Shown here piece by piece: positions 43,157 to 60,920 of a stretch of 64,000 bases of DNA (the stretch's first letter is position 1; each line of letters starts with the position of its first letter). This DNA comes from Longibacter salinarum (GTDB taxonomy: Bacteria > Bacteroidota > Rhodothermia > Rhodothermales > Salinibacteraceae). The translations under genes were made by a program, and so were the position numbers. The DNA is taken from NCBI RefSeq assembly GCF_002554795.1, contig NZ_PDEQ01000006.1, positions 124,001 through 188,000 on the forward strand, given 5' to 3'. The notes under the pieces were generated by a model. It saw only the letters and a program-made list of their open reading frames with translations, searched no databases and was not told the origin of the DNA.

Positions 43157-44425
43157 ATGCCCTCAATATCGCACGACATTCTCCACCGATCTGGCTCCAT
43201 GAGTATGATGCAAGGAGACGGTGGTCCCGATGCGTCCACCGTGCTGCGGCCGGGACACGTTGGTTTAGTGCATGACTGGCTGCCGGTGTATGCGGGTGCC
43301 GAGCGTGTTTTAGAACAAATCATTCGTGCGTACCCCTCCTCAGATCTGTACAGTCTCATCGACTTTATCCCTGATGATCAACGTGACTTTTTGCAGGGGA
43401 AATCGGTTGAGACATCGTTCATTCAGCGCCTACCATTCTCCAAGTCAAAGTACCGCTACTACCTGCCGCTGGCACCGATGGCGATCGAGCAGTTCGACCT
43501 CACGGACTACGACGTCGTGGTCTCGTCTAGCTACGCTGTGGCAAAGGGGATCCTCACGAAGGCCGATCAGCTCCACGTCAGTTACGTGCACAGTCCGATC
43601 CGGTATGCCTGGGACCTCCACCATGATTACCTCCGCGAAAGTGGACTGACAAGCGGCATTCGCAGCATGTGTGCCCGTGCGATCCTTCACTACATTCGCC
43701 TCTACGACGCCATCGCGGCCAATCGTGTGGACGTCTTCCTCGCAAACTCCCAGCATGTAGCGCGCCGAATATGGAAGACGTATCGGCGCAAGGCGCAGGT
43801 CATCTACCCTCCGGTAGACGTTGATCGGTTCCAGCTTCAGGCGAAAAAGGAGGATTTCTACCTCACGATGTCCCGTCTCGTGCCATACAAGCGCATCGAT
43901 CTGATCGTCGAGGCCTTTACGGCCATGCCAGACAAGGAGCTCGTCGTCATTGGAGATGGTCCGGAGATGAAGAAGATCGAGAAGCTCGCCGGGCCCAACG
44001 TGACGCTTCTGGGTTATCAGCCAGATGAGGCGGTGGAGTACTACATGCAAAACGCCCGGGCCTTCGTCTTTGCCGCAGAAGAGGATTTCGGCATTGTACC
44101 CGTCGAAGCACAGGCCTGTGGAACACCTGTCATCGCGTACGGGCGGGGCGGTGCGCTGGAAACGATCGTGCCGGGACAAACGGGCATTTTCTTTCAGGAG
44201 CAAGACGTAGCTCATTTAAAAAACGCTATTGACGATTTTGAGGCGGTTGAAGATCGTCTTGATCCGGAAACCATCCGTGCAAATGCCGAGCGATTTTCGC
44301 CGCAGGTATTCCGCGACGCCTTCACGCGAGCAGTAAATCGAGCCTATGCCGAGTTCATCGACGATCACTTCGTGTCCAACGACCACGCAATGCGTACCGT
44401 GGCGCCGGAAGTCGTCGGATCGTGA
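43157..44425 (+). CDS. GT4-family glycosyltransferase, WbaZ-like
   Basis: 422 residues. The N-terminal Rossmann domain has VGLVHDWLPVYAGAERVLE and VVVSSSYAVAKGI with VSYVHSPIRYAWD; the C-terminal GT4 domain has MSRLVPYKRIDLIVEAF, VVIGDGPEM and the nucleotide-sugar site AEEDFGIVPVEAQACGTPVIA with the Glu pair. It transfers a sugar, mannose in the WbaZ relatives, to a polyprenyl-linked chain on the cytoplasmic face. In-frame Met codons at 43199 and just after are alternative starts. It opens the plus-strand polysaccharide set, with the sugar-phosphate transferase following. Confidence 0.92.
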   Translation: MPSISHDILHRSGSMSMMQGDGGPDASTVLRPGHVGLVHDWLPVYAGAERVLEQIIRAYPSSDLYSLIDFIPDDQRDFLQGKSVETSFIQRLPFSKSKYRYYLPLAPMAIEQFDLTDYDVVVSSSYAVAKGILTKADQLHVSYVHSPIRYAWDLHHDYLRESGLTSGIRSMCARAILHYIRLYDAIAANRVDVFLANSQHVARRIWKTYRRKAQVIYPPVDVDRFQLQAKKEDFYLTMSRLVPYKRIDLIVEAFTAMPDKELVVIGDGPEMKKIEKLAGPNVTLLGYQPDEAVEYYMQNARAFVFAAEEDFGIVPVEAQACGTPVIAYGRGGALETIVPGQTGIFFQEQDVAHLKNAIDDFEAVEDRLDPETIRANAERFSPQVFRDAFTRAVNRAYAEFIDDHFVSNDHAMRTVAPEVVGS

Positions 44426-44518
44426 GATCCGTTGCCGCATCGGCCCTTCGGTGGGTCATTCATCATCTGTTTCGCTTTCGACCTAGATCCTGTGGCTGCG
44501 ACTCTTCAGCATGATTCG

Positions 44519-45985
44519 ATGATCGGGCCTCCTGCGCCCGAGTTGACGATTGTCTCTCGTGCAGACGTCGCTTCGGCGTCCACACAGTCGTTAGAAGCCG
44601 TACATGCACGACGTGCACGCTGGATGACGCTCCTGGCTCTTGCTGTGACCGATTTCGTCGCGTTTGGGTCGGTTCTTGGGATCCTCGATCTGGCGGCCTA
44701 TGCCGTTGCCCCTGCGTACGCGAGCACGGTCTGGTCGGCGGCGGCTCTACTTCCTGTCATCCTCATTGCGTTCGTCTTTCTCGGGCTGTATCACCACACC
44801 CGAATGCATCCAGCAGATGAGATGCGGATGGCGAGTCAGGTGACGGTGACCATCGGCTTGACAGCGGCCATCGCTGTGTACGTGGGCGGCGGCAACTCCA
44901 TCGTGGCGATGACTATGGTGGCAGCTGCTCTGCTTGGGGCAGTTGTGGTCCCGCTTTGCCGGGGATTCTTCCGAGTCATTTGTGCACGGGCAGAGTGGTG
45001 GGGACAACCTGCCGTGGTCATCGGCGAGAAGGAGGAAGCATTGACGGTGACCGATACGCTGAAACGATGGCCGGAAATTGGGCTGCGTCCCGTTGCGCTT
45101 CTCACCGATCGACCTGTTGATACACCGATCTGGTCTGGCCCGAGCGGGACGGCCCTACATGTGGCCGCGAATCACGATATACCGTACGCGATTGTCGTCG
45201 AACCGAATCTCGACGCCGAAGAGCACGACCATCTTGTCGCACGCTACAGCAAGTTCTTCGACAACGTGCTCGTCGTCCCCGACGTGAAGAAGGGAGCCGC
45301 CGCGCTGTGGCGAACCGGACGCTCGCATCAGGGCCTTGTCGGGTACGGCGTGAGTCACTACGAATTGCAGGTCGGTGCGCGGTTCGCCAAGCGCATCATC
45401 GACATGATCGGTGCCCTGCTACTCACGATTGTATCGTTTCCCCTGCTTTTGACGATCGCCGTTCTGATCAAGATCGACTCCCCCGGGGGCGTGTTCTACA
45501 GCCAGAACCGGATGGGACGCCAGGGCCGATGTTTCTCCGTGTTGAAATTTCGGACGATGCATGTGGATGCAGACGCCATCCTGGCCGACTTGCTCGATAA
45601 GGACCCCACGCTACGGGCCGAGTACGAGCAGTTTCACAAACTGCAGGAAGACCCGCGGGTGACCCGGATTGGGCGCGTGTTGCGTCGATACAGTCTGGAC
45701 GAGCTCCCGCAGCTTTTCAACGTGATCGCAGGAGATATGAGTCTCGTGGGGCCTCGCGCGTACATGCCGAGAGAACTTCCCAAGATGAAAAATCTCGCTC
45801 GCATCGTTCTTCAGACCCCACCGGGAATCACTGGGCTGTGGCAGGTTTCAGGTCGAAACGCTCTGAGCTTCGAGCGGCGCGTGGATTTGGATGTGCACTA
45901 CTTCAAGAACTGGTCGCCATGGCTTGACCTCTACCTGCTCATTCGCACCGTGCCCGTGGTCCTTTCGGGCGAGGGCGCATCTTGA
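44519..45985 (+). CDS. Polyprenyl-phosphate hexose-1-phosphate transferase (WbaP/WcaJ type)
   Basis: 488 residues from the ATG at 44519 ([10 protein letters not shown]); the frame starts at 44432, overlapping nothing. Four or five N-terminal membrane helices (about 35-165), a nucleotide-sugar-like CoA-binding_3 domain (about 165-280), a further membrane re-entrant helix ([19 protein letters not shown]), and the catalytic domain with [38 protein letters not shown] and [11 protein letters not shown]. It starts repeat-unit assembly by moving sugar-1-phosphate from a UDP-sugar to undecaprenyl phosphate, made by UppS. The KFRTM and LDELPQ motifs are diagnostic. Confidence 0.95.
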
Positions 45986-46072
45986 CTCAGCGTTCGGGTG
46001 CAGAACGCGGTTATAGAGAACCTCAACACTCCTTCTTTCGGTACGCCCCATCATTGCAACACCCCCAGACCC

Positions 46073-48496
46073 ATGAATGACAAGAATCTGAGTCGCTTTG
46101 ACAGCGGCGACATGACGCCGGCTCCGCTTCGAAACGGGCACGCGAGTAATCGGATGAACGGTTCGGCCCACCATGGTGGCGGTTCGTCTGGCTCTTCGTC
46201 AGAAGCCAATGCAGGAATTGATGTCGCGGAAATTCTGGATATGCTCCGTCGCGGCAAGTGGATTATCGCTGCCACGACGATTGTTGTGGTTGCACTGGTC
46301 GGAGCGTACACCTACACGGTCGACCCTGTGTACGAGGCGAAGAGTATCGTGAAGATCGATTTAGGTGCACAATCCGGGCCTGGAGGGATGGGGGCCTTCG
46401 GGCAGCAGCGTGATCTGGCGAGTGAAGTCGGCGTTCTTCAGTATTCCGCTGAACTCGCCTCCCGGGTCGTTGCTGAGTTACGTGCGACCGAGTCCGCTCT
46501 CGAGGAAAAAGGAAAGTTTCCTCTATTATACGGCGAGGACGGTCAAGCGAGGTCAACCAATGAAGTGATGTCTCACATGATGCAACGTGTGAGTTTCGTT
46601 CCCATGCAGAGCCAGAGCATGATCCAGTTCACCGTGGAAAGCGGTGTCCCGGAAGAAGCGTCCACGGTAGCGAATCTGTATTCTTCGCAGTACGAAATCT
46701 TTAGCCGAGAGAAAGCGAGAGCGAGCGTTACGGCGGCGCGCGATTTCCTGGAAACGCAGGCGGAGAAACGCCGCGAGGAGATTCGAGAACTGGAGCAACA
46801 ATGGGAAACCTTTGCACAGAATAATCAGGTGGTCACGCAGGGGATCGGCGGTGAGCGACTCGTGGCGGAATATACCGAATTGACTGCACGACGTGACGCT
46901 CTTCGATTTGAGTTAGAGCAAGAGGAAGAAGCCCTTCGCCTCCTCCGCGATCAGTTAGCTCAGTTCGAGCCGGGTCTTCGTGAAACGGTTCAACAGGAAC
47001 AAGAAGCAAGCGGGCTACGAAGCGAGATTAGCGTTCTGGAGCGTAAGATCGGTGAAATGAGGGCAGAAGCTGCTCAATACTACGTTGCCAATGATGGGCT
47101 CGAAGGGGATACCGACCGCATCGAGACTGAATTTCCTCAGCTTGCTGATTTGCTTGAGCGGATTAATGGGCTTGAGAAGCGCAAGCGTTCGCTAACGAAT
47201 CAACTTGTTGCAGAGGCTACGCAGAGCTCGGGACTTCCGGGAGCAACGGCCGGGAATGACTCCCAGATGGGGACCAGTGCCTTAAACCGCATCATGCAGC
47301 TTAAAACCCGGATCACAGAGCAAGAAATCCGAATCGGTCAGATTGAGGCGCAAATTGCCGGTTTAGAAAGCGCCATACAAAGCTATGAGCCGCGATTGAA
47401 CCGAATTCCGCAGCAAACGATTCAGCGGGAGCAAATCGATCGTAAGCTACAGCAGGCCGAACGTTTTTATCAGTCCATAACGTCCGAACTTCAGAAAACC
47501 ATCATTGCTGAAGAGTCAGAACTTGGATACGTGGAGACGGTCCGAAAGGCGTTCGTGCCGTCGATTCCTGTGAAACCGAACGTTCAACAAAACCTGCTTC
47601 TCGGTTTGCTTCTCGGCGTCGGTTTCGGCATCGGACTGGCCTTTCTCCGTTTAGCATCCAACTCGCGAATTTATCGTCCGGACGACCTTCTTCGGAACGG
47701 CTATCGCGTAACCGGCGTCGTTCCCAAAATGGATAACGAAATCAAAAAAGAATTTCGAGGTCGTGATACCGTCGAGATTGAAGGACACGAGTTGTCCACG
47801 CGGCTTCTTCCTATTCTGAGTCCGTGGTCACCCGTGACTGAGAACTACCGATTGATTCGGACGAACATGCAGTATGCCGGATCCGGTCAATCGTATGGCG
47901 AACCGCCACAAACGATTCTTGTGACCAGTCCGGAGCCGGGAGACGGAAAGACGACAACAGCCATAAATCTCGCGCTGACCTTTGTGTTGAGTGGGAAGAA
48001 AGTGCTTTTGATCGACGCCGATATGCGTCGTCCGACAGCTCATAAGCTACTTGGAATGGAGCGATCTCCCGGTCTTGCAGAGATGCTCCGCGGGGATGAC
48101 AAGGTTCAGGTTGTCCGTCGAACCTATGTCGATGGTCTCTACTTCGTGCCAGCAGGAAAAGCAGAGGATCCACCAACCGAAGCGCTAGATTCGGTCCGGA
48201 TGGACAAGCTCATCGAACTAGGCAAGTCCAGGTGCGATATCGTCATTATTGACACTCCGCCGGTTTTAGCAGCGAGTGATCCACTGGTTCTGGCACCACG
48301 AGCAGACGCGACCCTGGTTGTAACGTCGGCAAACTCAACCGATGTGGACTCGCTCGATCTGACGCGTGACATGTTGGAAGGGGTTGGGGTTTCGATAAGC
48401 GGTGTCATATTTAACCGCTTTGACGACGCCAAGGCGTCCGGTTCGAATTATAAGTACGGATATTATCACAGCGACAACTATCGCATGGTGTCATAA
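46073..48496 (+). CDS. Wzc-like polysaccharide co-polymerase with BY-type tyrosine kinase
   Basis: 807 residues from the ATG at 46073. A Wzz domain with first membrane helix at about 63-82, a long periplasmic coiled coil (about 190-500), a second helix at about 506-530 (LLLGLLLGVGFGIGLAFL), then a cytoplasmic kinase with Walker A SPEPGDGKTTTAINLA at about 617-632, Walker A' LLIDADMRRPTAHKLLG, Walker B VIIDTPPVL and a tyrosine cluster at the very end (NYKYGYYHSDNY). Phosphorylation of that cluster regulates chain length and export of capsule or exopolysaccharide. No Wza exporter or tyrosine phosphatase lies in the window. The convergent T9SS gene begins 52 bp past its stop. Confidence 0.95.
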   Translation: MNDKNLSRFDSGDMTPAPLRNGHASNRMNGSAHHGGGSSGSSSEANAGIDVAEILDMLRRGKWIIAATTIVVVALVGAYTYTVDPVYEAKSIVKIDLGAQSGPGGMGAFGQQRDLASEVGVLQYSAELASRVVAELRATESALEEKGKFPLLYGEDGQARSTNEVMSHMMQRVSFVPMQSQSMIQFTVESGVPEEASTVANLYSSQYEIFSREKARASVTAARDFLETQAEKRREEIRELEQQWETFAQNNQVVTQGIGGERLVAEYTELTARRDALRFELEQEEEALRLLRDQLAQFEPGLRETVQQEQEASGLRSEISVLERKIGEMRAEAAQYYVANDGLEGDTDRIETEFPQLADLLERINGLEKRKRSLTNQLVAEATQSSGLPGATAGNDSQMGTSALNRIMQLKTRITEQEIRIGQIEAQIAGLESAIQSYEPRLNRIPQQTIQREQIDRKLQQAERFYQSITSELQKTIIAEESELGYVETVRKAFVPSIPVKPNVQQNLLLGLLLGVGFGIGLAFLRLASNSRIYRPDDLLRNGYRVTGVVPKMDNEIKKEFRGRDTVEIEGHELSTRLLPILSPWSPVTENYRLIRTNMQYAGSGQSYGEPPQTILVTSPEPGDGKTTTAINLALTFVLSGKKVLLIDADMRRPTAHKLLGMERSPGLAEMLRGDDKVQVVRRTYVDGLYFVPAGKAEDPPTEALDSVRMDKLIELGKSRCDIVIIDTPPVLAASDPLVLAPRADATLVVTSANSTDVDSLDLTRDMLEGVGVSISGVIFNRFDDAKASGSNYKYGYYHSDNYRMVS

Positions 48497-48548: not shown

Positions 48549-49586
48549 TCACTTGACGACATGGACGAGCTGCGACACTGTTTGCGTTTTACCCTGGACG
48601 GATAGAACATACGGACCGCTAGAGAGGCTGGCTGCGTCGATTGAGAACGTCCGGTGCTCACCGGTACGCAGCTTCGTCTTCAGAATGGTGCTGATGTGTT
48701 GGCCTGTTACAGAGAACAAGTCAATGCTAACATCCTGAGCAATTGACGATTTGACCGTCACCTGGGATGACGCGGTAACCGGATGCGGTGCGATGGGAGA
48801 CAGGAACAGACTTCTGTTTGTACCGACGGTCACGTGTAAGACCCGACTGAGCGATATCGCACCGTCTACGTCTACCTGACGGAGTCGTATATTGTACTGA
48901 CCGGGCGCATCAACCGTGAATTTATACTGGTATGATTGAGGGCGATCTGTCGTGCCCGCACCGTCGATGAACGCGACCTTTTCCCATAGGGACGCAGGTT
49001 CGTTCGTGGGACGCATTATCACGTCAAAGCCCGCGTTATTCGTTTCCGTTGCTGTCTCCCATTCTAGGACAATTGTGCTCCCATCCACGAAGGCCTGCCA
49101 CGAAACCAATTCGACGGGGAGGAAGAAGGGATCGAAGTCGGTAATGGTGTAAATGCCATTCCGGTCATAGATTGCCTCATCAACACACAAGTTCTCATCC
49201 GGCTGACATGGCTGGAATGTAGGCGTTAGTTCGTATATATCCCCGGTAGATGTCTGTGCCCAGAATCGTAAGGTATCTCCAGGGCGGTAGCCCGGCGCGG
49301 AGGTTTGTGGGTTTTGCTCTGCGATCGCAAAACTGTTTGGTTCCGACGAGTCGATACGTGTCTCGCCGGTGCAGGTATTCCCATCTGGGGTTACGGCTAT
49401 CAAGACATCTCCCTCGGTGAGAGGGCTCTTTTGCACCGCATTCGCCGCTGCACTTGTCTCAATGACGACCGTTGCGTTATTCACATTCTCAACGCAATCG
49501 GTCGGGAATGTGGGTTGCGCGTAGCCGGGGTGTGGCAACGCACCGATCATGAAGGCGCAGATTGAGAGTAACAGCCTATGTAGCAT
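48549..49586 (-). CDS. Secreted protein with T9SS type A sorting domain
   Basis: 345 residues from the ATG at 49586 (MLHRLLLSICAFMIGALPH...YAQ is a signal peptide); the frame is open 29 codons further up. Middle part: a beta-rich region with WQAFVDGSTIVLEWETATE and NNAGFDVI, the fibronectin-like segment common before T9SS tails. C-terminal sorting domain (about 270-345): SLFLSPIAPHPVTASSQVTV, SIDLFSVTGQHI and GPYVLSVQGKTQTVSQLVHVVK (in parts). The protein is exported by T9SS and attached to or released from the cell surface. Cysteines near the N-terminal part may form disulfides. Function unknown. Its place inside the polysaccharide region suggests a surface role. Confidence 0.85.
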   Translation of the reverse strand: MLHRLLLSICAFMIGALPHPGYAQPTFPTDCVENVNNATVVIETSAAANAVQKSPLTEGDVLIAVTPDGNTCTGETRIDSSEPNSFAIAEQNPQTSAPGYRPGDTLRFWAQTSTGDIYELTPTFQPCQPDENLCVDEAIYDRNGIYTITDFDPFFLPVELVSWQAFVDGSTIVLEWETATETNNAGFDVIMRPTNEPASLWEKVAFIDGAGTTDRPQSYQYKFTVDAPGQYNIRLRQVDVDGAISLSRVLHVTVGTNRSLFLSPIAPHPVTASSQVTVKSSIAQDVSIDLFSVTGQHISTILKTKLRTGEHRTFSIDAASLSSGPYVLSVQGKTQTVSQLVHVVK

Positions 49587-49712
49587 GGTCTTGTGGGATT
49601 GAAAGTCCAAAACGTTCTTCTCCTCCTTGTACATCGTGTACGGTAGAGAGCAATCTGGCGTGCCGACAGGCATTTCAGATTACGGCAAGTTGAAGGCTCC
49701 GGTGTATAGAAG

Positions 49713-49791: not shown

Positions 49792-52700
49792 CTAACGCAC
49801 GACCGTCATCTTCTTGGTGAGCGTAGTCGAACCGGCACGTAGGCGGTAGAAATATGGACCGCTGTCGAGTCGGCTTGCATCCATACGGACTTTATGCTCA
49901 CCCGCGCGGCGCAATTCATCGACGAGTGTTGCGACGCGACGACCGAGAACATCATATACCTCCAGCGAAACACGTTCTTGCTTCGGTAGGACGAACTCGA
50001 TCGTAGCAGATCCCTGGACGGGATTCGGTGCGATTCCACGCAGCAGCAACTCGGTGTTCTGGTCACCGGCGACCAATTTCAGGACGGCGTTTTCCTGAAA
50101 TGCGATCTTAGAGATGGGACGGTCAGAGAGCATGTCCTCTACCTTCTGGACGTCGAGGGATTCCCCAGTCTCGCTTCCTACGTAGATGGATAAGCGTTCA
50201 CCGGACGTTGCCCCATCAACGGGTGTGGTTTGTGGATCGTCACCCCACAATCGGACGATCCCGCGACCATCGCTCACTATTCCCTTACCAACAATTCGTC
50301 CTTTTGCTGTTTTGGCGAGTAATGATGTTCCGTCGCTCATGGATGGTGATTCCACGATCGCCGTCGCTGTCACAGCATGACCGCGCCGTGCCTTTGCGGA
50401 CGACGTTTTCGCATACGCAGCCTTTGATGAGGGGTAAGTAAGAGTTGTCGCGTTGTCTACGTAAATTTGATACCCCTGTCCCGGTCGAACAAGACCGCTT
50501 CCGGCATCAAGCGTATTCAAATTTTCAGACGGAATATATGCATCTCCTGCATAATCCTTAACGATTACGAGCTCACTCGATATTGACGAGAAGGCTTCCT
50601 CGGCAGACATCGAACCATCCGGCCAGTACGCTACTAGGTTCCAACCCTGCTCAAGTTTGATCGGTGCTGTGGGGTCTAGCACTGATCCATTCATCGACAG
50701 TTTGCTGTCCTTCGTCAGGTAAACCTTGTAGGCTTCGTCGGAAGACCATGAGCCGATAGTGTTGATTCCATAGTCTGGGATGTACGTCTCTCCGACTTCA
50801 TTTTTTACAAGCACGACGTCCGACACGATCGAACCAAAGACCGTTTCCATTGAGGCATCATCTGGAGCGATCGAGCTCGACACGATATTCCAACCAGAGT
50901 TGAGAGACATGTCCGACGAGGACTGCTCAACGAACCACTGTTCCCAGTCTCCATTCGGCCACATTTTCTCCCCCCAACGGGCGGCTCGATCCAGTACACG
51001 TCCGTCGAGATTGCGTCCCGACCAGAGGTGCATCATCGAGTAGAACATGTCTGCGCGATTGGCTGACCACTTAATGGAATTTACCTTTTGGGGCTTATAC
51101 GTCTGGTCCGGGATTCGGCTATTTCCCTTGTCGTCTCTTCGCCAGTCGCTCACGGCCCATTCATTATTTTGCTTGATCCACGAATCGATCGCTGCTTCGG
51201 TGAATCGATTGCGCAGGTTCGAATTCATGGACGTAAGCATATTCTGCACTTCCCACACTTCGAGCTTTTGCAGGCTGTGACCGTGAATCGACCATGGCCA
51301 TGAACCCTTTCGTTCGGCTTTTATGTCGCTATCGGGCTGATAGAATCGGTTGAACTGCTGGATGGCCGAGATATAGTGTCGGAAGTAACGTACCCCCTGG
51401 TTGCTGTTGTACTCGCTCGTCGACTGAATGTGCATCGAGTTATAATTCCAGTCGTACGGGTTATTCCCGGTTGCGAGCCGGTTGCCTGGCGCCAGAGTCA
51501 GAGCCAGATCGTACCAAATATCTCCCCAGTAGTTACGAGACCGCGCGTTCCGGTGTGTACCAGCACCTTGCCCATATTGGGGCGTTCCTCCACCCGCGCC
51601 ACAACACTTCCGTTGATTTTTGTGTGGGCTTGTGTCGTACACATTCGCGTTATTGAACCAGACGCGATCCTGACCTCCGGCAAAGATCCCATTCGGGAGT
51701 GAGCCTGCTTCCGGGCCCCATGCGAGGCGGTCCGGTTGTCCCTCGGGACCGTAAATCTCCGCACCGAGTCCTTCGAGTTTGTGCTCGTGCATGATCTCCC
51801 AGAGCTTCATCGAAAGAAACTGCCGCGTTGAGTAGCGTTTCTCGAATTCGGTCGAGAAGCTCGCGTCGACTGGAGGATCCCAATTATTCCACCGATCAAG
51901 CAATTTGCTTATTCGGCGATCAAGTCGTGTGGTGTTACCGCCTCTACGCTCGCCGACGTTGTCTCGTGCGGTAGCGATCATCTGCTCCCGACTCGTTTCA
52001 AGGTCGTCGTGGATGGAGAGATAGTTCTTGTACCAGTCCTGATTTTCCACCGTTGAGACATCCCAGATATCCACGGGGTGAACGTCGGGCCACCACTCGA
52101 AGATATCCGGCCACTGCACCTGGACGGGGACCTCACGGTTGTTCATCGTGGAGTCGGTGTGCGCCATCGCGAACATCTTCGACTGATCAGAGGTCATTGA
52201 GATCTGATCGGCGAGCTTGTTGCAGTCGACGCCGCGATCGGGGTCGTGGTCGGCGTTGCGCAGCACCGTCTCGGATCCATCGCTCGGGAACAGGAACGGA
52301 GCACTGTCTTCGTCGCGATCGACAACGCAGTCGATTCCGGCGCCTGCTGCCCATAGCTCAACCGGTCGCTCATCAAGACCGGGGCCGGGTTGATACGGAG
52401 GGTTCCATGGACGACCCGCATCGGACACGTCATACCCCGACGGAAGCTCAAGATCGACGGACCGAATGTAACTTGCGATCTGTCGACCTTCCTTGTCGGT
52501 TAGACCGTGGAACGTCGAGCGTGCTACGATCGACTTGTTTGAGAAGTTGAAGTACTTCAGGTCGCGGCCATCACGAGCGTGACAATCGGCGCACGAAGCA
52601 GTGATCGGCTTGCCGTCGAGCGGTGATTCAACGAGAATGCCCCGAGCGTGCCAAAGCTCCTTCCCCTTGCTGATGTCGCTGCTACTACTGTACGGGGGGG

Positions 52701-53325
52701 ACCAGGAGGCCGGATCGTCCCATGTAAATGTCGTCGAGCCGAGACGACTCTGAGTACCCGCACGCACGTCGAGATCGAGAATCCGGTATCCGCTAGAGTA
52801 CCCCTCTGTGCCATTGAATCGAAACTCGATCGTGTTTTGGCCCGATGTCCAGGAGCCGGACTCGGTTGCATCTACCGCTATGCGCATGGTCTTATTCGAA
52901 AGTGGGCCGTCCATGCAGCCAAATTCACTTTCTGGAGAATCACACGTTATGCGCTCCTTTGTCATGCCAACCCACGGTCCGCCGTTGATTCGGAAGCTGG
53001 CCTTCTGGTCGTACCGCTCGCCTCCGTTCGTGACATGTGGGTCGGTACCGTTTTCAGCCCACTCGCTCCAGTGATAGGCGAGATTGTGAACCTCGAGATG
53101 CAGGTTGTCCACTCCGCTTGCATCAGAGACATCGACATTCACAGAGACCGTGTGGCCTTTGTCGCCGATGACCTCAAGTGGGAGTTGGACCGATCCACTG
53201 CTTGCGGTTTGGAACGTAGAGTAGGCTCCCGCCACGAAAATGGCAGCAACACAGAGAAAGAAGAGGGATAAGGTCGACCAGAGGCTAGACTGCTTGTTCT
53301 GGTCGTCCCGATGGGGGTAAGGCAT
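49792..53325 (-). CDS. Very large T9SS cargo protein with a c-type haem motif
   Basis: 1177 residues. Signal peptide or anchor at about 15-35; beta-sandwich-like region (about 45-190); a cytochrome-c-like part with the haem site C245-A-D-C248-H249 and FHGLTDKEGRQIASYIRS; a long helical central region (about 400-780) rich in Trp and Asn; two tandem repeats that begin GWNIVSSSIAP (about 807) and GWNLVAYWPDG (about 890), each about 80 residues; a linker; and a T9SS type A sorting domain (about 1090-1177) with NPVQGSATIEF and DVLGRRVATLVDEL. One haem is therefore carried on a protein exported to the surface. No known enzyme motif is visible in the middle. Several Trp residues next to Asp (WPDIFEWWPDVHP) could be a ligand site. 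Function unknown. Confidence 0.85.
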   Translation of the reverse strand: MPYPHRDDQNKQSSLWSTLSLFFLCVAAIFVAGAYSTFQTASSGSVQLPLEVIGDKGHTVSVNVDVSDASGVDNLHLEVHNLAYHWSEWAENGTDPHVTNGGERYDQKASFRINGGPWVGMTKERITCDSPESEFGCMDGPLSNKTMRIAVDATESGSWTSGQNTIEFRFNGTEGYSSGYRILDLDVRAGTQSRLGSTTFTWDDPASWSPPYSSSSDISKGKELWHARGILVESPLDGKPITASCADCHARDGRDLKYFNFSNKSIVARSTFHGLTDKEGRQIASYIRSVDLELPSGYDVSDAGRPWNPPYQPGPGLDERPVELWAAGAGIDCVVDRDEDSAPFLFPSDGSETVLRNADHDPDRGVDCNKLADQISMTSDQSKMFAMAHTDSTMNNREVPVQVQWPDIFEWWPDVHPVDIWDVSTVENQDWYKNYLSIHDDLETSREQMIATARDNVGERRGGNTTRLDRRISKLLDRWNNWDPPVDASFSTEFEKRYSTRQFLSMKLWEIMHEHKLEGLGAEIYGPEGQPDRLAWGPEAGSLPNGIFAGGQDRVWFNNANVYDTSPHKNQRKCCGAGGGTPQYGQGAGTHRNARSRNYWGDIWYDLALTLAPGNRLATGNNPYDWNYNSMHIQSTSEYNSNQGVRYFRHYISAIQQFNRFYQPDSDIKAERKGSWPWSIHGHSLQKLEVWEVQNMLTSMNSNLRNRFTEAAIDSWIKQNNEWAVSDWRRDDKGNSRIPDQTYKPQKVNSIKWSANRADMFYSMMHLWSGRNLDGRVLDRAARWGEKMWPNGDWEQWFVEQSSSDMSLNSGWNIVSSSIAPDDASMETVFGSIVSDVVLVKNEVGETYIPDYGINTIGSWSSDEAYKVYLTKDSKLSMNGSVLDPTAPIKLEQGWNLVAYWPDGSMSAEEAFSSISSELVIVKDYAGDAYIPSENLNTLDAGSGLVRPGQGYQIYVDNATTLTYPSSKAAYAKTSSAKARRGHAVTATAIVESPSMSDGTSLLAKTAKGRIVGKGIVSDGRGIVRLWGDDPQTTPVDGATSGERLSIYVGSETGESLDVQKVEDMLSDRPISKIAFQENAVLKLVAGDQNTELLLRGIAPNPVQGSATIEFVLPKQERVSLEVYDVLGRRVATLVDELRRAGEHKVRMDASRLDSGPYFYRLRAGSTTLTKKMTVVR

Positions 53326-54161: not shown

Positions 54162-55337
54162 CTACACGTGGGGCTCGTGGGACGCATGATCGGCGTGCGT
54201 CTGCCGTAACACGTCGTGGAGGCGGTGCGTCATCTGCTTGACGGAAAACCGGTGTCGTGCAACCTCCCGCCCTCGGCGGGCGATGATCGTGCTTTCCCGG
54301 CCATTCTCGAAAATCTGCTCGAGAACGGATGCGAGTGATTGCGCGTCGCCGGGTTCGGCGAAGTACCCCGTTCTGCGATGATCTATGATTTCCTTGACGC
54401 CTCCCGCACGGGAGGCAACGACGGGTCGGTTCGCGAGCATTCCCTCTACCACCACCCGACCGAAGGGCTCGGGAGCGGTTGACGCGTGGACGACGGCGTC
54501 GACTTCCTGCATTAGACGAGGGATGTCGTCGCGAAAGCCGAGAAAATGGACGCGATCAGCGACGTCACGCTTTTCGCATCGATCCCGGATTTCGTCCGCG
54601 TATGCGACATCGTCGGGAAATAAGGCGTCACCTACAACGAGGGCATGCACCGTTGGCAACGATGCCAGCGCATCGATGAGAACGTGCTGTCCCTTCCAGG
54701 GAGCGAGTCGGCTGAAGATTCCGACAAGAGGGGTGTCTCCGAGGTTCAACTCCCGTCGAATCGACCCATTTTGAGAGGAGGTGGATGCGTGGGAGTGCTC
54801 CTCAATGCCATTGTACACGACCTCGGTGGGTCGGCGGCCCCCACTGGACCGGTAGGCGGCTTCCGTTGCCTGCGAATTGACGACGACACGGTCGACGAAT
54901 GCATTCGACATTCGCGTCGCCAGAAAACGATTGGTACGACTAAAATGGTCGTTCGATAGGATGTCGTGCAAGCTCCATATTGCGGGGCGATTTGCAAGCC
55001 AGCTTGCAAGAGCACCGATGAGCATGGCTTTTTGAGAGTTCAGAAAGACAACGTCGTAGTCGCGAGCGACGCGAGATACGTTTGCGATCATACGAGTAAG
55101 CCCAGGGATCGCGGCGATCGCGTCGCAAGCGGTGGCAGTTTTCTGAACCCGTAGCACGGATGCGGGGGCTTCGACCACGCGGACATCATGTCCCTGTGCG
55201 TGAAGACGTTCTACAAGCGGGCCGCGTTCAAACGTCAAGACGGTGGAGTCAGGCGTGGCGCGGACCAGGTCCAACAGATATAACTCAGCGCCACCGAGTG
55301 AGCCCGTGTGGTCGATAAAAAGGGTGCGCGGCAACAT
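54162..55337 (-). CDS. GT4-family glycosyltransferase
   Basis: 391 residues. N-terminal LFIDHTGSLGGAELYLLDLV, acceptor domain with VVFLNSQKAMLIGAL, and a C-terminal domain with GIFSRLAPWKGQHVLIDAL, VHFLGFRDDIPRLMQEVDAVVH and PEPFGRVVVEGMLANRPVVAS. GT4 enzymes transfer a sugar from a nucleotide donor and retain its anomeric form. It is the last gene of the minus-strand operon, 29 bp behind the next glycosyltransferase. Confidence 0.92.
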   Translation of the reverse strand: MLPRTLFIDHTGSLGGAELYLLDLVRATPDSTVLTFERGPLVERLHAQGHDVRVVEAPASVLRVQKTATACDAIAAIPGLTRMIANVSRVARDYDVVFLNSQKAMLIGALASWLANRPAIWSLHDILSNDHFSRTNRFLATRMSNAFVDRVVVNSQATEAAYRSSGGRRPTEVVYNGIEEHSHASTSSQNGSIRRELNLGDTPLVGIFSRLAPWKGQHVLIDALASLPTVHALVVGDALFPDDVAYADEIRDRCEKRDVADRVHFLGFRDDIPRLMQEVDAVVHASTAPEPFGRVVVEGMLANRPVVASRAGGVKEIIDHRRTGYFAEPGDAQSLASVLEQIFENGRESTIIARRGREVARHRFSVKQMTHRLHDVLRQTHADHASHEPHV

Positions 55338-55366
55338 ATCGGTCTTGCTTGACGAAAGATGTCGTA

Positions 55367-56539
55367 TCAGTGCAGCGCGGCTGGGGCACGTCGATCGGAT
55401 GTTCGCGCATAGAGGTCTCGTGTTTTGCGTGCGATCACGGACCAGTCGAAATGTTCTGCGGCATGGTTTCTACATGTTGCCCCGTCGGGGAGCACACGGT
55501 CGCCATTGAGTGCCTCTAGCAGCCCTCGTGCGATGGATGGGACCTCTGCCCGATCCAGGACGAGATCATCGCTCAACCCTGACACGATGGATGGGAGTCC
55601 TCCCACCGGAGTCGCCAGCACAGGTGTGCCGGCTGCCAGGGACTCGACTGCAGAGAGCCCGAAACCTTCTAATGCGACGGTAGGCATGACCGAAGCCGTT
55701 GCGGCGCGGTAGGTTAGTGCGAGGTCCTCGTCTGGGACGAAGCCGAGAAATCGTACGTGATCGTTGAGGCCGGCATTGGCGACGTCCTCTTCCAAATGAG
55801 GTCGAAGTGGACCCGTACCTGCGATCATGAGCATCACGTCGGGACATACCTGCCGGACGCGATCTAGGGCAGCAATTAGTTGTTCGAGGCCGACGCGGCG
55901 GACGAGGCGGCGCACCGACAAGAAAATCGGACGATCGGTCGGCCACCCTAGCAGCTGTCGAGCGTCGGTGCGGGAAATGTGAGTTCGATCAAATGCACCG
56001 ACGTCAACACCCCCTGGTATGATGCTGATACGATCCGGCGGAACGCCGTAATCGCTGCTCAGGATATCCCGAAACGCCTCCGATAGGACAACGAATCGGT
56101 CCGCCCGGTTGTACACGAGTCGCTCGATGTGCGACTTGAGGGTGACCTTGAGACGAGACTCGCCCTCCATCAGCGATTCGCGCGCCCACGGGCCGTGGAA
56201 ATGGACGATCGTGGGGTAACCGCGAATTAAGTCGAGAACGGGGAGCGTATAGAGGGCAAAATGCGTGGTTACGACATCAGGGTCGACTTCCTGGATTGTC
56301 GACTGAACGTGATTTCGGATCGCGCGCCAACGCGTGGTCAGCGACGCCTTCTCATCTGCGACCCCGTGAAGTCCCCTAATCGGAGATCGTTGCTTCCCTG
56401 ACCCGTCTACCACGAGTCCATGCACGTACGCATCTGTCGCTGGTAGGTGATGTTGTAGGGCCTCAAACACACGATCGGACCCGCCTCCGGATGACGGGGA
56501 GAATCGTGTCTTGCCAATTTGATAAATGTGTATTGACAT
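55367..56539 (-). CDS. GT4-family glycosyltransferase
   Basis: 390 residues from the ATG at 56539 (MSIHIYQIGKTRFSPSSGGG); an in-frame ATG at 56554 adds five residues. Features: VVTTHFALYTLPVLDLIRG, VSVRRLVRRVGLEQLIAALD, ARFLGFVPDEDL-like segment HVRFLGFVPDEDLALTYRAA, and VALEGFGLSAVESLAAGTPVLA with the nucleotide-sugar-binding Glu. Operon neighbours are a sulfotransferase 28 bp upstream and another glycosyltransferase downstream. Confidence 0.92.
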   Translation of the reverse strand: MSIHIYQIGKTRFSPSSGGGSDRVFEALQHHLPATDAYVHGLVVDGSGKQRSPIRGLHGVADEKASLTTRWRAIRNHVQSTIQEVDPDVVTTHFALYTLPVLDLIRGYPTIVHFHGPWARESLMEGESRLKVTLKSHIERLVYNRADRFVVLSEAFRDILSSDYGVPPDRISIIPGGVDVGAFDRTHISRTDARQLLGWPTDRPIFLSVRRLVRRVGLEQLIAALDRVRQVCPDVMLMIAGTGPLRPHLEEDVANAGLNDHVRFLGFVPDEDLALTYRAATASVMPTVALEGFGLSAVESLAAGTPVLATPVGGLPSIVSGLSDDLVLDRAEVPSIARGLLEALNGDRVLPDGATCRNHAAEHFDWSVIARKTRDLYARTSDRRAPAALH

Positions 56540-56567
56540 GGAGTCGTGTCGCATAGAGGGGAATCAC

Positions 56568-57524
56568 TCAGGCAGCTTCTGGTAGAGCGGCCTGATGAGA
56601 CGTTGGGACGACGTTGTATCCGTATCGAAGCAGAAATGGCAGTGTGAGTGCCGTAACGAGTACCTTATGTATCCCCGCCATGTTAACCCTCCATGCAGCA
56701 TCTTCTCGGATACGGGTCACACCAGATTTTGCGCGACCTGGGTTGCCCCAGATCGTATGATTCGTTCCAAGCGTTATCTCGCGCTGTCCGTGAAATGGAC
56801 TCCCCGGAAAGGGGAGGCCAAGTGCTCGGACGGTGGACTCCAACATTCGCGCGGGGTTGGCGCAGAAATCTTCATACCGTAGGCGAATATTCGGAACGTC
56901 GTGTCGACGCAGTAACTGCTCCAGCGTCAGATTACACGCGACGTATCTTCGACAGCTGCCGACCGGAGAGAGCGTGGGCATGTAGAGGTCTTCCTGTGGT
57001 GCCACGTCCGTTCGCTTTTTCTTTTTTGACCATGAGTTTGCATTGCCCCTGGGATCGCGAACAAGATGCAAGACTCGAGTGTCGAGATTTGTGGCGCTCA
57101 GCAAGAGATACAGGTGTGACGGCGTTTTTGACATGTCGACGATCACCTCGGCTCCCGATACCGTTGCTACTTCTTCGTAGATCGCCTGGATGGCCGCACC
57201 GTATTCTTTCAGTACATCCTGCTTGGTCGGCGCAAGACCGGCAGCGATCTCAATGTTTGAGGGGAGGGCCTTTCGCTGTCGTATCAGGTCATCGACTGGC
57301 ACAGCGTCCACAGAACCATATAGCGAGCGAAACACCGGCCCCCAGAGTGCGCATGACGATATTTTCTCTCCGCACCCGCATGCATGGCCTCCGACGAAGA
57401 TATTCTCCCACGCATAATTAGCCTCCCCGATGTTCACGTAGCTGGTGATCTCGTTGAGGCAGTTGGCGAGGATGGTGCTACCACTTCGCCCACGACCCGC
57501 GATGTAGAGTACTTTGGTCTTCAT
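56568..57524 (-). CDS. PAPS-dependent sulfotransferase
   Basis: 318 residues. The 5'-phosphosulfate loop GRGRSGSTILANCL at about 10-23 and the 3'-phosphate site LHLVRDPRGNANSWSKKKK at about 158-175 define the sulfotransferase fold. It would move sulfate from PAPS to a hydroxyl, most likely on the growing polysaccharide, given that its start overlaps the end of a glycosyltransferase gene (ATGA overlap at 57521-57524). Cysteines in ACGCGEKISSCALWG are close together and could bind a metal or form a disulfide. Enzyme class is firm, substrate inferred. Confidence 0.9.
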   Translation of the reverse strand: MKTKVLYIAGRGRSGSTILANCLNEITSYVNIGEANYAWENIFVGGHACGCGEKISSCALWGPVFRSLYGSVDAVPVDDLIRQRKALPSNIEIAAGLAPTKQDVLKEYGAAIQAIYEEVATVSGAEVIVDMSKTPSHLYLLLSATNLDTRVLHLVRDPRGNANSWSKKKKRTDVAPQEDLYMPTLSPVGSCRRYVACNLTLEQLLRRHDVPNIRLRYEDFCANPARMLESTVRALGLPFPGSPFHGQREITLGTNHTIWGNPGRAKSGVTRIREDAAWRVNMAGIHKVLVTALTLPFLLRYGYNVVPTSHQAALPEAA

Positions 57525-58732
57525 GCCGTTTCTGCTGAAGAGGATTTCGAGGACGTGGTAGAATGACCGGGTGAGCCGCTGTCAGGGGCCTCGGTGGCCA
57601 ACACACGATGTAAGGTCGACACGAATCTGTTCGCGAGGACCTCGTCGGTGTGCGTACGGAGCACGTGTTGACGACCTGTTTCTGCAAAGCGTCGGCGCTT
57701 GTCCGGATGCTGGGCCATGAATCTCAGTGCGTTGGAGAGTGCGGTTGAGTTGCCTTCCTCGAAGGAGATTCCACCACCGGACCGTCGAATAACATGCGGG
57801 ATTTCCCCAGAGTCGGATCCGATCAATGCAGTCCCGCAGGCGAGGGCTTCAATCAGGACACGGCCGAATTGCTCTTTCCAGTTCGCTTGGGTCTCGGATG
57901 GAAGTACGAGAACGTCAAACAAAGAGAGGTAGTCGGGGGCCTCTTCGTGCGGAACATATCCTGTAAAGCGAAGCCGATCCCCAATGCCCAAAGACTCAGC
58001 ACGGGAACGAAGGACCTCGGCATAATCTCCATTTCCTACGACCACGAAGCGCCATGGAATGTCGCGCATGGACGACAGCGCGTCGAGCGCCGTATCGAGA
58101 CCCTTCACTTGGCTTACGCGGCCCATGAACCCAATGACGATCTCATCGCTCCCGACATTTAGATTGGCTTTAAGCTCGTCGTTCGATTCCCGTGGGTAGT
58201 ATGCCGATTGATCCACACTACCCGGCAGTAGCACACACGGACCGTCATATCCTTTTGCTCGAAGGATCTCTGTAGCGCTGTCGGAGCCGGCAAATGCAAA
58301 GGCGCTTTCTCGAAGTACCATGCGTTCGGTTTGGGCGAAGGGCGGCGGATAAGTTTTCTGAATATTTTGCCAGGTAAAAAAGCCGATCGGGCAATCGTGC
58401 CACAACCGATTTGCCTGGTAGACCTGAGCGGTAGCGGCGCCGTATGGTTCGTGGCGCACGTAAATCACATCGGGCTTGTCTCGCTTTAGGATGTGCCGAA
58501 AGGTGGTACGGTAGACGTGGAGAGGGACGCTGCCATTCATCCAGACAGGTATCGCTTCAAGACGCCCCCGAAATGCGGGCCATCGTTCGAGAGAGCGCTG
58601 GTTTCCGTAATCGTCAACCCACATGGATGGAGAGACGAGCGTGATATCAACGTCTGAGACCCGTTCGACGACGCTGTAGAACTGCTGATTGGTAGGTGTC
58701 GCGCAGTCGTGGCTTACGACGAGAAGTTTCAT
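57521..58732 (-). CDS. GT4-family glycosyltransferase
   Basis: 403 residues from the ATG at 58732 (MKLLVVSHDCATPTNQQF), where the family begins. VIYVRHEPYGAATAQVYQAN, IGFMGRVSQVKGLDTALDAL, RLRFTGYVPHEEAPDYLSLFDVLVLPSE and EQFGRVLIEALACGTALIGSD are typical. Its last four bases overlap the sulfotransferase start (translational coupling). It is 32 bp behind a second sulfotransferase gene. Confidence 0.92.
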   Translation of the reverse strand: MKLLVVSHDCATPTNQQFYSVVERVSDVDITLVSPSMWVDDYGNQRSLERWPAFRGRLEAIPVWMNGSVPLHVYRTTFRHILKRDKPDVIYVRHEPYGAATAQVYQANRLWHDCPIGFFTWQNIQKTYPPPFAQTERMVLRESAFAFAGSDSATEILRAKGYDGPCVLLPGSVDQSAYYPRESNDELKANLNVGSDEIVIGFMGRVSQVKGLDTALDALSSMRDIPWRFVVVGNGDYAEVLRSRAESLGIGDRLRFTGYVPHEEAPDYLSLFDVLVLPSETQANWKEQFGRVLIEALACGTALIGSDSGEIPHVIRRSGGGISFEEGNSTALSNALRFMAQHPDKRRRFAETGRQHVLRTHTDEVLANRFVSTLHRVLATEAPDSGSPGHSTTSSKSSSAETA

Positions 58733-58763
58733 CTTGTACCGACGGGGGATTCCGAACAAAGAG

Positions 58764-59741
58764 TCAGGAAGGGGTTAAATCGCCTAGTTTAAAACTTTCG
58801 CGATCATAGATGCGAAGTGCTATCTCTGACGTGATCTCAAAAATATCGCGCCTTGTGTTGAGCGGGACAGAGTCACGCCGCATCTCGAAGATGCTCGCAC
58901 TGTCACGCTTAAAGTCCTGCACCCGACCATCCGAAGCGTACGCTTTCCCGTTGTTGGTCGTTAGCGATAGGATTTTCTTATGTACGCCATCAGACCAGGG
59001 GAGCCCGCACTCTCGATAGATTCGGCGAAAGACCCTCACCGGGTGTGAAGAGAGCTCTTCGTGTGTGACCACGATCCAGTCACCGTGTTTTTCAGCCTGA
59101 TCAAGCAACACGCGATAAAGCATGCGCCAGTGTGCCATAGACTCCAGCAGGCGATCCTCCCAGTTGGTGTGCAAGAGATGCAGGTCATCTTCTAGGTGGT
59201 TGGCGATAACGTCGGGTTGCAATGCGAAGTCGTACACTTCCGGAAACCATGATAATCGCTTCAAGCTGGCTGCAAGCGAAACCGGGTGACGGACGATCAC
59301 AACCGGCTTGACACCGAACTCTCGGTAGAGAAAGTCGGTCGTTAGGCCCGCCATCGGGTCTTTGATTAAAGCGTGACGCCGAAACCAATTTGCTTTAGCG
59401 AGTCGAAGGTAGAAGGGGCCGCGACTCCCGAAAAGTCTCTTCGCGACCTTTCGAGCGAGGGGGTCATCGTCGTATTTCGCAGACGACATCCCGATGTCGT
59501 ACGTAAAAATGTGTCGCACATGGTCGCGATATCGACGAGCGGCATGCGAATGGTCGTTTTTATCGACGTACCGAGCCTTGAGAGCAATCCCCTCGGGAAT
59601 CGTATAGCCTCCATTAAATGGCTCGTGGATGTAGTCGACGCTCACAGGGTGGCTCAGTACCGAGGCCAAAAATGTCGTGCCGCTACGGATCATGCCCGTA
59701 ACGAACACCCATGATTCGATCGATGTGGGGTCAATGGACAT
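58764..59741 (-). CDS. PAPS-dependent sulfotransferase, second of two
   Basis: 325 residues. 5'-PSB loop VTGMIRSGTTFLASVL at about 14-29 and 3'-phosphate site VVIVRHPVSLAASLKRL at about 145-162, with HEELSSHPVRVFRRIY following. It is not closely similar to the sulfotransferase at 56568, so the two probably modify different positions or sugars. It lies between two glycosyltransferase genes in the same operon. Confidence 0.9.
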   Translation of the reverse strand: MSIDPTSIESWVFVTGMIRSGTTFLASVLSHPVSVDYIHEPFNGGYTIPEGIALKARYVDKNDHSHAARRYRDHVRHIFTYDIGMSSAKYDDDPLARKVAKRLFGSRGPFYLRLAKANWFRRHALIKDPMAGLTTDFLYREFGVKPVVIVRHPVSLAASLKRLSWFPEVYDFALQPDVIANHLEDDLHLLHTNWEDRLLESMAHWRMLYRVLLDQAEKHGDWIVVTHEELSSHPVRVFRRIYRECGLPWSDGVHKKILSLTTNNGKAYASDGRVQDFKRDSASIFEMRRDSVPLNTRRDIFEITSEIALRIYDRESFKLGDLTPS

Positions 59742-59774
59742 AGATCTGTACCTGACGACGAGCGTGAGCGAGAG

Positions 59775-60920
59775 CTAGACAAAGGACGGCTCGCATGAGG
59801 AGATGGACAGCGTATCGAAAAGAGATAAGTACTTCCGAGCCATCCCATTCCAAGAGTGGTTCTCGGCGATTCTTCGGGCCGCCCGGCTCATGGAGTCGGA
59901 GGTACGTGTTTCTGCAGCGAGCCGACGCAGTTCGACCGCAACGCGTGTCACGTCGTCGGGATCGTCAATCACGACGCCGGCTGACGACTGGACCAGCTCT
60001 GCGCCTCCGGCGGATTGAGCAGTCAGAATGGGGAGCCCCGAGCCAAGCGCCTCGAGGAGTACGAGCGAGCAGGCTTCGTAACGAGAAGGAAAGACGAAGA
60101 AGTCGGATGCACGCATCAGATCGGGGATGTCACTGCGAAACCCAAGGAAGTGTACGCGATCGGCAACGCCGATTTCTGAGCACATTTGTGGGAAGGGGCT
60201 TCCTTCGATTCGCCCGGCAACAGCGATGTGAATACCTTTCGCATCGGGAAGGGCCTTAATCACGGTGTCGAGCCCTTTCCTCGGCGTTCGAATATCACCG
60301 GCAAAAAGCCCTATGGGCACACCATCGGGTAAGCCCAACTGCTGCCGTGATGCAGGACCAGGATGAAATTCAGTTGCGTCGACACCGTTGTGGATGACCG
60401 ATATGTTCTCGGGGGGGCAGCCAACATGGATTAGTTCGCGTTTTACTTTCTCAGAGACCGCAACCAGCCGTCTTGCCCTCGGCAACACTCGCTGCTCAAT
60501 GTTCGCATTCACCTTCGAGTACACCCACTGATACATTCCCTTCACGTCGCGGCGAATTTTGGAATCATGAACGTTGGAGGTGCGCCAGGCAGAATGAACG
60601 AAGTGAATGATGTTGACGTCTACCGGTGCCCAGGTATTGGCGCCGTTCGCAACGATTAAATCGACGTCCTGTCCGTGTTCTTGTATCCACGATGTGCTCT
60701 CCTGGGCGAAGCGTAGATTTCCCAACAACGCATTAGGAGCGTTCGCGTCAGGCATCGGAACCCACTCCACATTCGGCTCCATCAGAAGTCGGTTGTCGAC
60801 GTCAGACGCCAAACATGTGATGGTATGTCCGTGTTGGGCGGAGAGGCGAGCGAGTTCTAAATTGACACGACCCTGTCCCTCACCCTTGATTAAGCGATTC
60901 GTGACAATCGTTATGTGCAT
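59775..60920 (-). CDS. GT4-family glycosyltransferase
   Basis: 381 residues. ITIVTNRLIKGEGQGRVNLELARL, RLVAVSEKVKRELIHVG, VIHNGVDATEFHPG, GLFAGDIRTPRKGLDTVIKAL, VHFLGFRSDIPDLMRASDFFVFPS and EACSLVLLEALGSGLPILTA. The FHFxxS-like GFRSDIPDLMRAS segment recurs in several glycosyltransferases of this operon. It is 33 bp behind the next gene on the left and 44 bp from the polymerase gene. Confidence 0.92.
   Translation of the reverse strand: MHITIVTNRLIKGEGQGRVNLELARLSAQHGHTITCLASDVDNRLLMEPNVEWVPMPDANAPNALLGNLRFAQESTSWIQEHGQDVDLIVANGANTWAPVDVNIIHFVHSAWRTSNVHDSKIRRDVKGMYQWVYSKVNANIEQRVLPRARRLVAVSEKVKRELIHVGCPPENISVIHNGVDATEFHPGPASRQQLGLPDGVPIGLFAGDIRTPRKGLDTVIKALPDAKGIHIAVAGRIEGSPFPQMCSEIGVADRVHFLGFRSDIPDLMRASDFFVFPSRYEACSLVLLEALGSGLPILTAQSAGGAELVQSSAGVVIDDPDDVTRVAVELRRLAAETRTSDSMSRAARRIAENHSWNGMARKYLSLFDTLSISSCEPSFV

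Follow-up and report, generated by a model that had tools for sequence, protein, structure and literature searches.

The gene at 49792..53325 on the minus strand of the 64,000-nucleotide stretch of Longibacter salinarum DNA analysed here (the window) encodes a 1177-residue, predicted secreted monohaem protein (P0001) that has full-length homologues within the same order. These proteins make up a coherent family, unnamed in the databases searched and present in at least eight phyla. We tentatively propose, as a possibility that falls somewhat short of probable, that the protein is a polysaccharide-bound extracellular haem oxidoreductase acting on the surface polysaccharide or on a substrate associated with it.

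An earlier note, made from the letters of the window, had placed a reading frame of this length at exactly these positions, with its strand unstated, and had described in it a beta-sandwich, a Trp-rich region, two GWN repeats, a single haem motif and a T9SS tail; all of these features were recovered in our analysis, and every feature of the gene given below lies on the minus strand. Structure prediction, a step that the note had proposed, was conducted with AlphaFold2 for core residues 46 to 801 on the basis of 22 sequences, and the resulting model (pLDDT 79.8, pTM 0.84) consists of three modules, i.e., a beta jelly roll (residues 46 to 200, 52726..53190), a small helical haem domain, apparently of a short cytochrome c type (residues 201 to 295, 52441..52725), and a long all-helical domain (residues 318 to 801, 50923..52374). 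Between the last two modules lies a near-invariant linker, PWNPPYQPGP (residues 306 to 315, 52381..52410), in which W307, Q312, P313 and G314 are kept in 92 of 92 aligned members. The N terminus (residues 1 to 43, 53197..53325) carries a candidate export signal, with a hydrophobic stretch at residues 19 to 34. A scan for promoters and terminators gave a signal no higher than that in shuffled sequences.

At the other end of the protein, residues 1098 to 1177 (49795..50034) constitute a T9SS type A sorting domain, with PF18962 matching residues 1100 to 1175 (E 4.5e-10, 40.1 bits; cut-off 27) and TIGR04183 matching the same tail (E 4.1e-9, 36.3 bits; cut-off 23). Since the host genome encodes both the T9SS translocon SprA (TIGR04189, 1714.7 bits) and a Cytochrom_C_asm assembly protein (PF01578), export of the protein to the surface by T9SS and covalent attachment of haem at its CADCH motif are both plausible. 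About 50 T9SS sorting domains in this genome match the tail of the 1177-residue protein; T9SS cargo is thus abundant in L. salinarum.

The haem c attachment motif CADCH occupies residues 245 to 249 (52579..52593). Only 0.0014 CxxCH motifs would be expected by composition in a protein of such make-up, where one was observed, and no second CxxCH was present in any reading frame of at least 150 codons in the window. Furthermore, the aligned homologues, which come from at least eight phyla, keep C245, C248 and H249 in 92 cases of 92, indicating that the motif did not arise by chance, and each full-length member has exactly one CxxCH, at the same alignment column. The residues of the haem domain are the most conserved part of the protein, since 14 of about 113 columns are invariant in the haem-domain alignment (A4) versus 4 of about 400 in the alignment compared with it. 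Residues invariant in all 92 members comprise D255, I266 and R288 along with the haem-binding and linker residues named above, as well as W411, D419 and W604 in the helical domain. In the AlphaFold2 model, the haem domain resembles the cytochrome c domain of QcrC (7qhm_C; Z 5.6, rmsd 2.4 A over 68 residues), and weak matches to Pfam Cytochrom_C were obtained for 34 of 65 members at E 0.1 (best E 1.6e-4).

The distal side of the putative haem pocket departs from that of a typical cytochrome c. No conserved Met ligand was found, as Met occurs in more than 5 of the 92 members at only three columns across residues 240 to 330, namely 241 (nine members), 246 (12 members) and 271 (10 members). In normal class I cytochromes, 17 residues lie between the sixth ligand and the aromatic residue of the C-terminal helix (PMC2909971). 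Counting back from Y286 by this spacing leads to A268, which is not a ligand, and H273 is located five residues nearer; the textbook axial ligand is therefore missing. When the haem domain was aligned with Pseudomonas aeruginosa c551 (an approximate sequence) by hhalign, only the N-terminal half was aligned and the sixth ligand was not placed. A candidate distal-pocket motif, R269-S-T-F272-H273 (52507..52521), is conserved instead: R269 is present in 88 of the 92 members, an aromatic residue (F, Y or W) at 272 in 88 and H273 in 89, with R-x-x-aromatic-H found in 87 and R-x-x-H-H in one more. The three members lacking H273, which read K-L-R, K-L-R and V-A-R at these positions, have lost the Arg and the Phe too and retain the haem motif. 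Both K-L-R copies are from Rhodothermus, each next to a tandem paralogue that retains R-F-H, and the V-A-R member sits on a long branch in another part of the tree; hence, the triad appears to have been lost jointly on two occasions. Plant-type peroxidases have a distal Arg, Phe and His with the same R-x-x-F-H spacing. We regard this likeness, which concerns three residues and implies no relation in fold, as a lead, and H273 could equally ligate the iron directly; in the model, it falls in the loop joining the final two haem-domain helices.

The earlier note could name no family for the protein, and neither could we: searches of Pfam, NCBIfam and PDB sequences with residues 46 to 801, whether as a single sequence or as a profile, gave no match, and no description of the protein in Rhodothermus or of its kind was found in the literature consulted, mostly open-access papers. 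In a contig scan, relatives were retrieved with an alignment as the query and none with the single sequence. A homologue is encoded in 27 of 100 near and order-level relatives, and a profile scan of GTDB genomes yielded 167 encoding stretches, 79 of which were retained as loci. Members occur in Bacteroidota, Rhodothermota, Acidobacteriota, Myxococcota, Pseudomonadota, Verrucomicrobiota, Bdellovibrionota, Chloroflexota and Deinococcota, and because many of the source genomes are metagenome-assembled, the single-phylum cases (Chloroflexota, Deinococcota) could represent binning errors. The spread is patchy (9 of 296 genomes sampled from the phylum), and plasmid records gave two partial, unannotated matches in Caballeronia. 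Rhodothermales proteins form one group in a FastTree phylogeny (support 88), save for one long-branch member. Where members outside Rhodothermales possess extra domains, these are of Ig-like, lectin-like or sorting types. Tandem pairs of family genes were noted in Rhodothermus, one Rhodothermales metagenome-assembled genome and Burkholderiaceae (L029-L032, L035, L123, L125), one copy of the pair being devoid of R-x-x-F-H in two Rhodothermus strains. Hymenobacter montanus has three family copies in one genome (L057, L059, L091), all with T9SS-like tails.

Among the remaining modules, the jelly roll has its best structural match in the CBM35 structure 2wz8 (Z 6.8, rmsd 3.2 A over 102 residues), a score that is too low to stand out and is tied with those of BcsB and other carbohydrate-active jelly rolls. 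No Pfam CBM family matched the protein above the cut-off. The predicted fold suggests that this module may bind sugar. Two GWN repeats, SGWNIV and QGWNLV, follow the core at residues 808 to 965 (50431..50904), and within the family at least one GWN[LIM][VI] is found in Rhodothermales members only. Trp amounts to 5.4% of residues 300 to 800, and the helical domain making up most of this region contains, besides its invariant residues, D625 and Y628 as near-invariant positions among the 92 members. It was remodelled from 79 diverse sequences (m3f808d073f2d; pLDDT 80.5, pTM 0.85), had no match among PDB sequences and gave no convincing fold match in a Foldseek search of the PDB (best E 0.77). The best hit in VIA, a designed helical repeat (Z 8.1), superimposed poorly (rmsd 6.5 A), and the helical-repeat look-alikes, which were all that the fold searches gave (Z 8.1 or lower), were rejected as kin. 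From this absence of a match, the modelled domain could be a new fold.

The neighbourhood of the gene points to exopolysaccharide (EPS) synthesis. As had been observed from the letters of the window, the gene sits between two parts of an EPS locus: GT4, Bac_transf priming transferase and Wzz/Wzc-type tyrosine kinase genes on the plus strand (43157..48496), identified with Pfam, and GT4 glycosyltransferase and two sulfotransferase genes on the minus strand (54162..60920), four of which were assigned by Pfam and two, 57521-58759 and 59775-60920, taken as GT4 by eye. The presence of the two sulfotransferase genes (56568-57524 and 58764-59741, minus strand) suggests that the locus probably makes a sulfated EPS. 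A search for homologues and their neighbours, likewise proposed in the note, revealed that the link holds across Rhodothermales, where GT4 genes are near the family gene in 16 of 20 loci and in 10 of 13 genera. With 22 to 42 such genes per genome, the chance of a GT4 neighbour is at most about 0.11 to 0.16 per gene, and the association by genus has P < 2e-5 even at a chance of 0.2. The three genera that have no GT4 nearby belong to one family (f9), and another locus (L048) is cut off by a contig edge.

Outside Rhodothermales, no shared neighbours or EPS context were found in the loci examined, and EPS was accordingly rejected as a family-wide role. The basic function of the family is thus broader than EPS, and our reading is that of a general surface redox protein that was recruited to EPS loci in Rhodothermales. 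Nor is the family essential for EPS, since it is missing in numerous Salinibacteraceae whose genomes may well provide for EPS synthesis. Directly downstream of the gene lies one for a 374-residue T9SS-tailed protein (48549..49673, minus strand; PF18962 and no other Pfam domain), a possible partner of the 1177-residue protein. T9SS-tailed proteins of 354 to 388 residues occupy this position in at least five loci (L034, L038, L039, L042, L047), and the copy in the window was likened to them by size and tail alone. In Burkholderiaceae, a gene of the tetrapyrrole methylase family follows the family gene (L123 12707-13537, L125 12848-13651, L127 10107-11063), as assigned by Pfam for L123 only and by clustering for L125 and L127.

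In the mechanism that we propose, T9SS would carry the protein to the surface, where it would be anchored, by the jelly roll and possibly also by the GWN repeats, to the EPS that the cell itself makes and that is probably sulfated. Its c-type haem would have His249 as the proximal ligand and Arg269, Phe272 and His273 in the distal pocket in place of a fixed Met, and the coordination left open in this way would allow the haem to react with peroxide or O2. The oxidising equivalent would then travel on to a substrate bound within the aromatic helical domain, resulting in modification or cross-linking of the surface polysaccharide or of a phenol or protein associated with it. An enzyme was favoured on account of the large conserved helical partner, the invariant aromatic and acidic residues and the non-canonical distal side. 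Against it, the putative peroxidase likeness consists of three residues of a domain that is well conserved at many other positions, the scores of the modelled jelly roll are middling, and the lack of EPS context outside Rhodothermales means that EPS need not be the substrate.

A further objection is that H273 may simply ligate the iron, and this leads to the main rival, an extracellular electron carrier in which a six-coordinate bis-His haem (H249/H273) would relay electrons from the outer membrane to an acceptor in the EPS matrix, the jelly roll being an anchor only. We consider this rather unlikely, even though H273 is so widely kept and is modelled where the sixth ligand normally sits, and even though the CBM-linked X183 cytochromes provide a precedent (PMC8981238, PMC10916295). 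Each protein would carry a single haem, and the Rhodothermales loci were found to encode no further protein with CxxCH, which argues against a locally encoded electron chain. The host genome has no LPMO_10 gene, which removes a likely acceptor and makes a role as LPMO electron donor unlikely in L. salinarum. In addition, a carrier would not be expected to have so large and conserved a helical domain, in which W411, D419 and W604 are invariant. The joint loss of R269, F272 and H273 from three members still possessing the haem motif also speaks against this rival.

Those same helical-domain residues, together with D625 and Y628, could instead mark a carbohydrate-active enzyme of a new fold that hydrolyses, cleaves or transfers polysaccharide, with the haem being structural or regulatory. 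EPS clusters often encode a glycan-cleaving enzyme, and the Rhodothermales loci would be in keeping with this, but such an enzyme is improbable given that conservation is strongest in the haem domain, and the helical domain has no fold match to glycoside hydrolases or lyases, although the absence of such a match does not exclude one. Weak matches to DUF1924 (PF09086), which we take to be the family of SHP (sphaeroides heme protein), were given by 11 of the 65 haem domains (E 0.1 or lower, best 0.0076), raising the idea of a surface haem-based sensor or scavenger of O2, NO or redox state that takes no action on polysaccharide. SHP binds O2 and has a ligand other than Met (PMC2909971). These matches nevertheless appear to be below significance, a separate surface sensor would be hard to use with no signalling partner, and the repeated EPS linkage would stay unexplained, so this idea appears very improbable. 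An adhesin or matrix scaffold with a vestigial haem domain is scarcely credible, for although several members are fused to Ig-like, laminin-G-like and T9SS domains, vestigial sites decay, whereas the haem motif is present in 92 of 92 members amid strict conservation.

Our results thus place a haem family that is unmatched in Pfam, NCBIfam and PDB sequences across many phyla. If the protein is a true redox enzyme, it would add oxidative chemistry to the assembly of bacterial surface polysaccharides, and its Arg-x-x-Phe-His would put to the test the conversion of a cytochrome c domain into a peroxidase. Were it no more than a carrier, it would still be an unnamed family for catalogues of extracellular cytochromes. 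The boldest form of the oxidoreductase proposal, which we regard as unlikely, is a new class of extracellular haem enzyme in which a c-type cytochrome domain lost its Met ligand, evolved a plant-peroxidase-like Arg-x-x-Phe-His independently, became coupled to a helical substrate domain of a new fold and, in Rhodothermales, was recruited for the oxidation of the EPS that the cell itself makes.

Several known systems resemble parts of the protein. It shares CxxCH (92 of 92) with class I cytochrome c and differs from it in lacking a conserved sixth ligand at the canonical spacing, and its jelly roll resembles CBM35 in modelled topology, at a score too low to stand out, and has no CBM sequence match above the cut-off. 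Class II and III haem peroxidases have a distal Arg-x-x-Phe/Trp-His with the same three-residue motif spacing; here, however, the haem is of the c type in a cytochrome c-like domain, and no Pfam peroxidase family was among the Pfam matches of the protein or its members, so that the likeness would be convergent at most. SHP, too, is a class-I-like c cytochrome that has one haem and a sixth ligand other than Met (PMC2909971), but it is small and releases its Asn ligand when reduced, and its profile resemblance to the family is weak and apparently not significant. The X183 monohaem domains of Cbp2D of Cellvibrio japonicus and of TERTU_2913/3803 of Teredinibacter turnerae are likewise extracellular c-type modules of large multidomain proteins, some of which also carry carbohydrate-binding modules; electron donation to LPMOs is slow for CjX183 and was not seen for the TtX183s (PMC8981238, PMC10916295). 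X183 haem is His/Met coordinated, in contrast to the haem domain of the family with no conserved Met, which is joined to its own helical domain; the L. salinarum genome is devoid of LPMO_10, and no X183 chain was retrieved up to E 5 in an hmmsearch of PDB sequences with the haem-domain profile (A4). Finally, GlxA, DtpA and CslA of Streptomyces differ from the protein in cofactors, folds and export route and offer a works-like analogy and not a relationship; extracellular oxidases (the radical-copper GlxA and the haem peroxidase DtpA) are tied there to surface glucan synthesis and can be integral to the making of a surface glycan (PMC11022532, PMC4736821).
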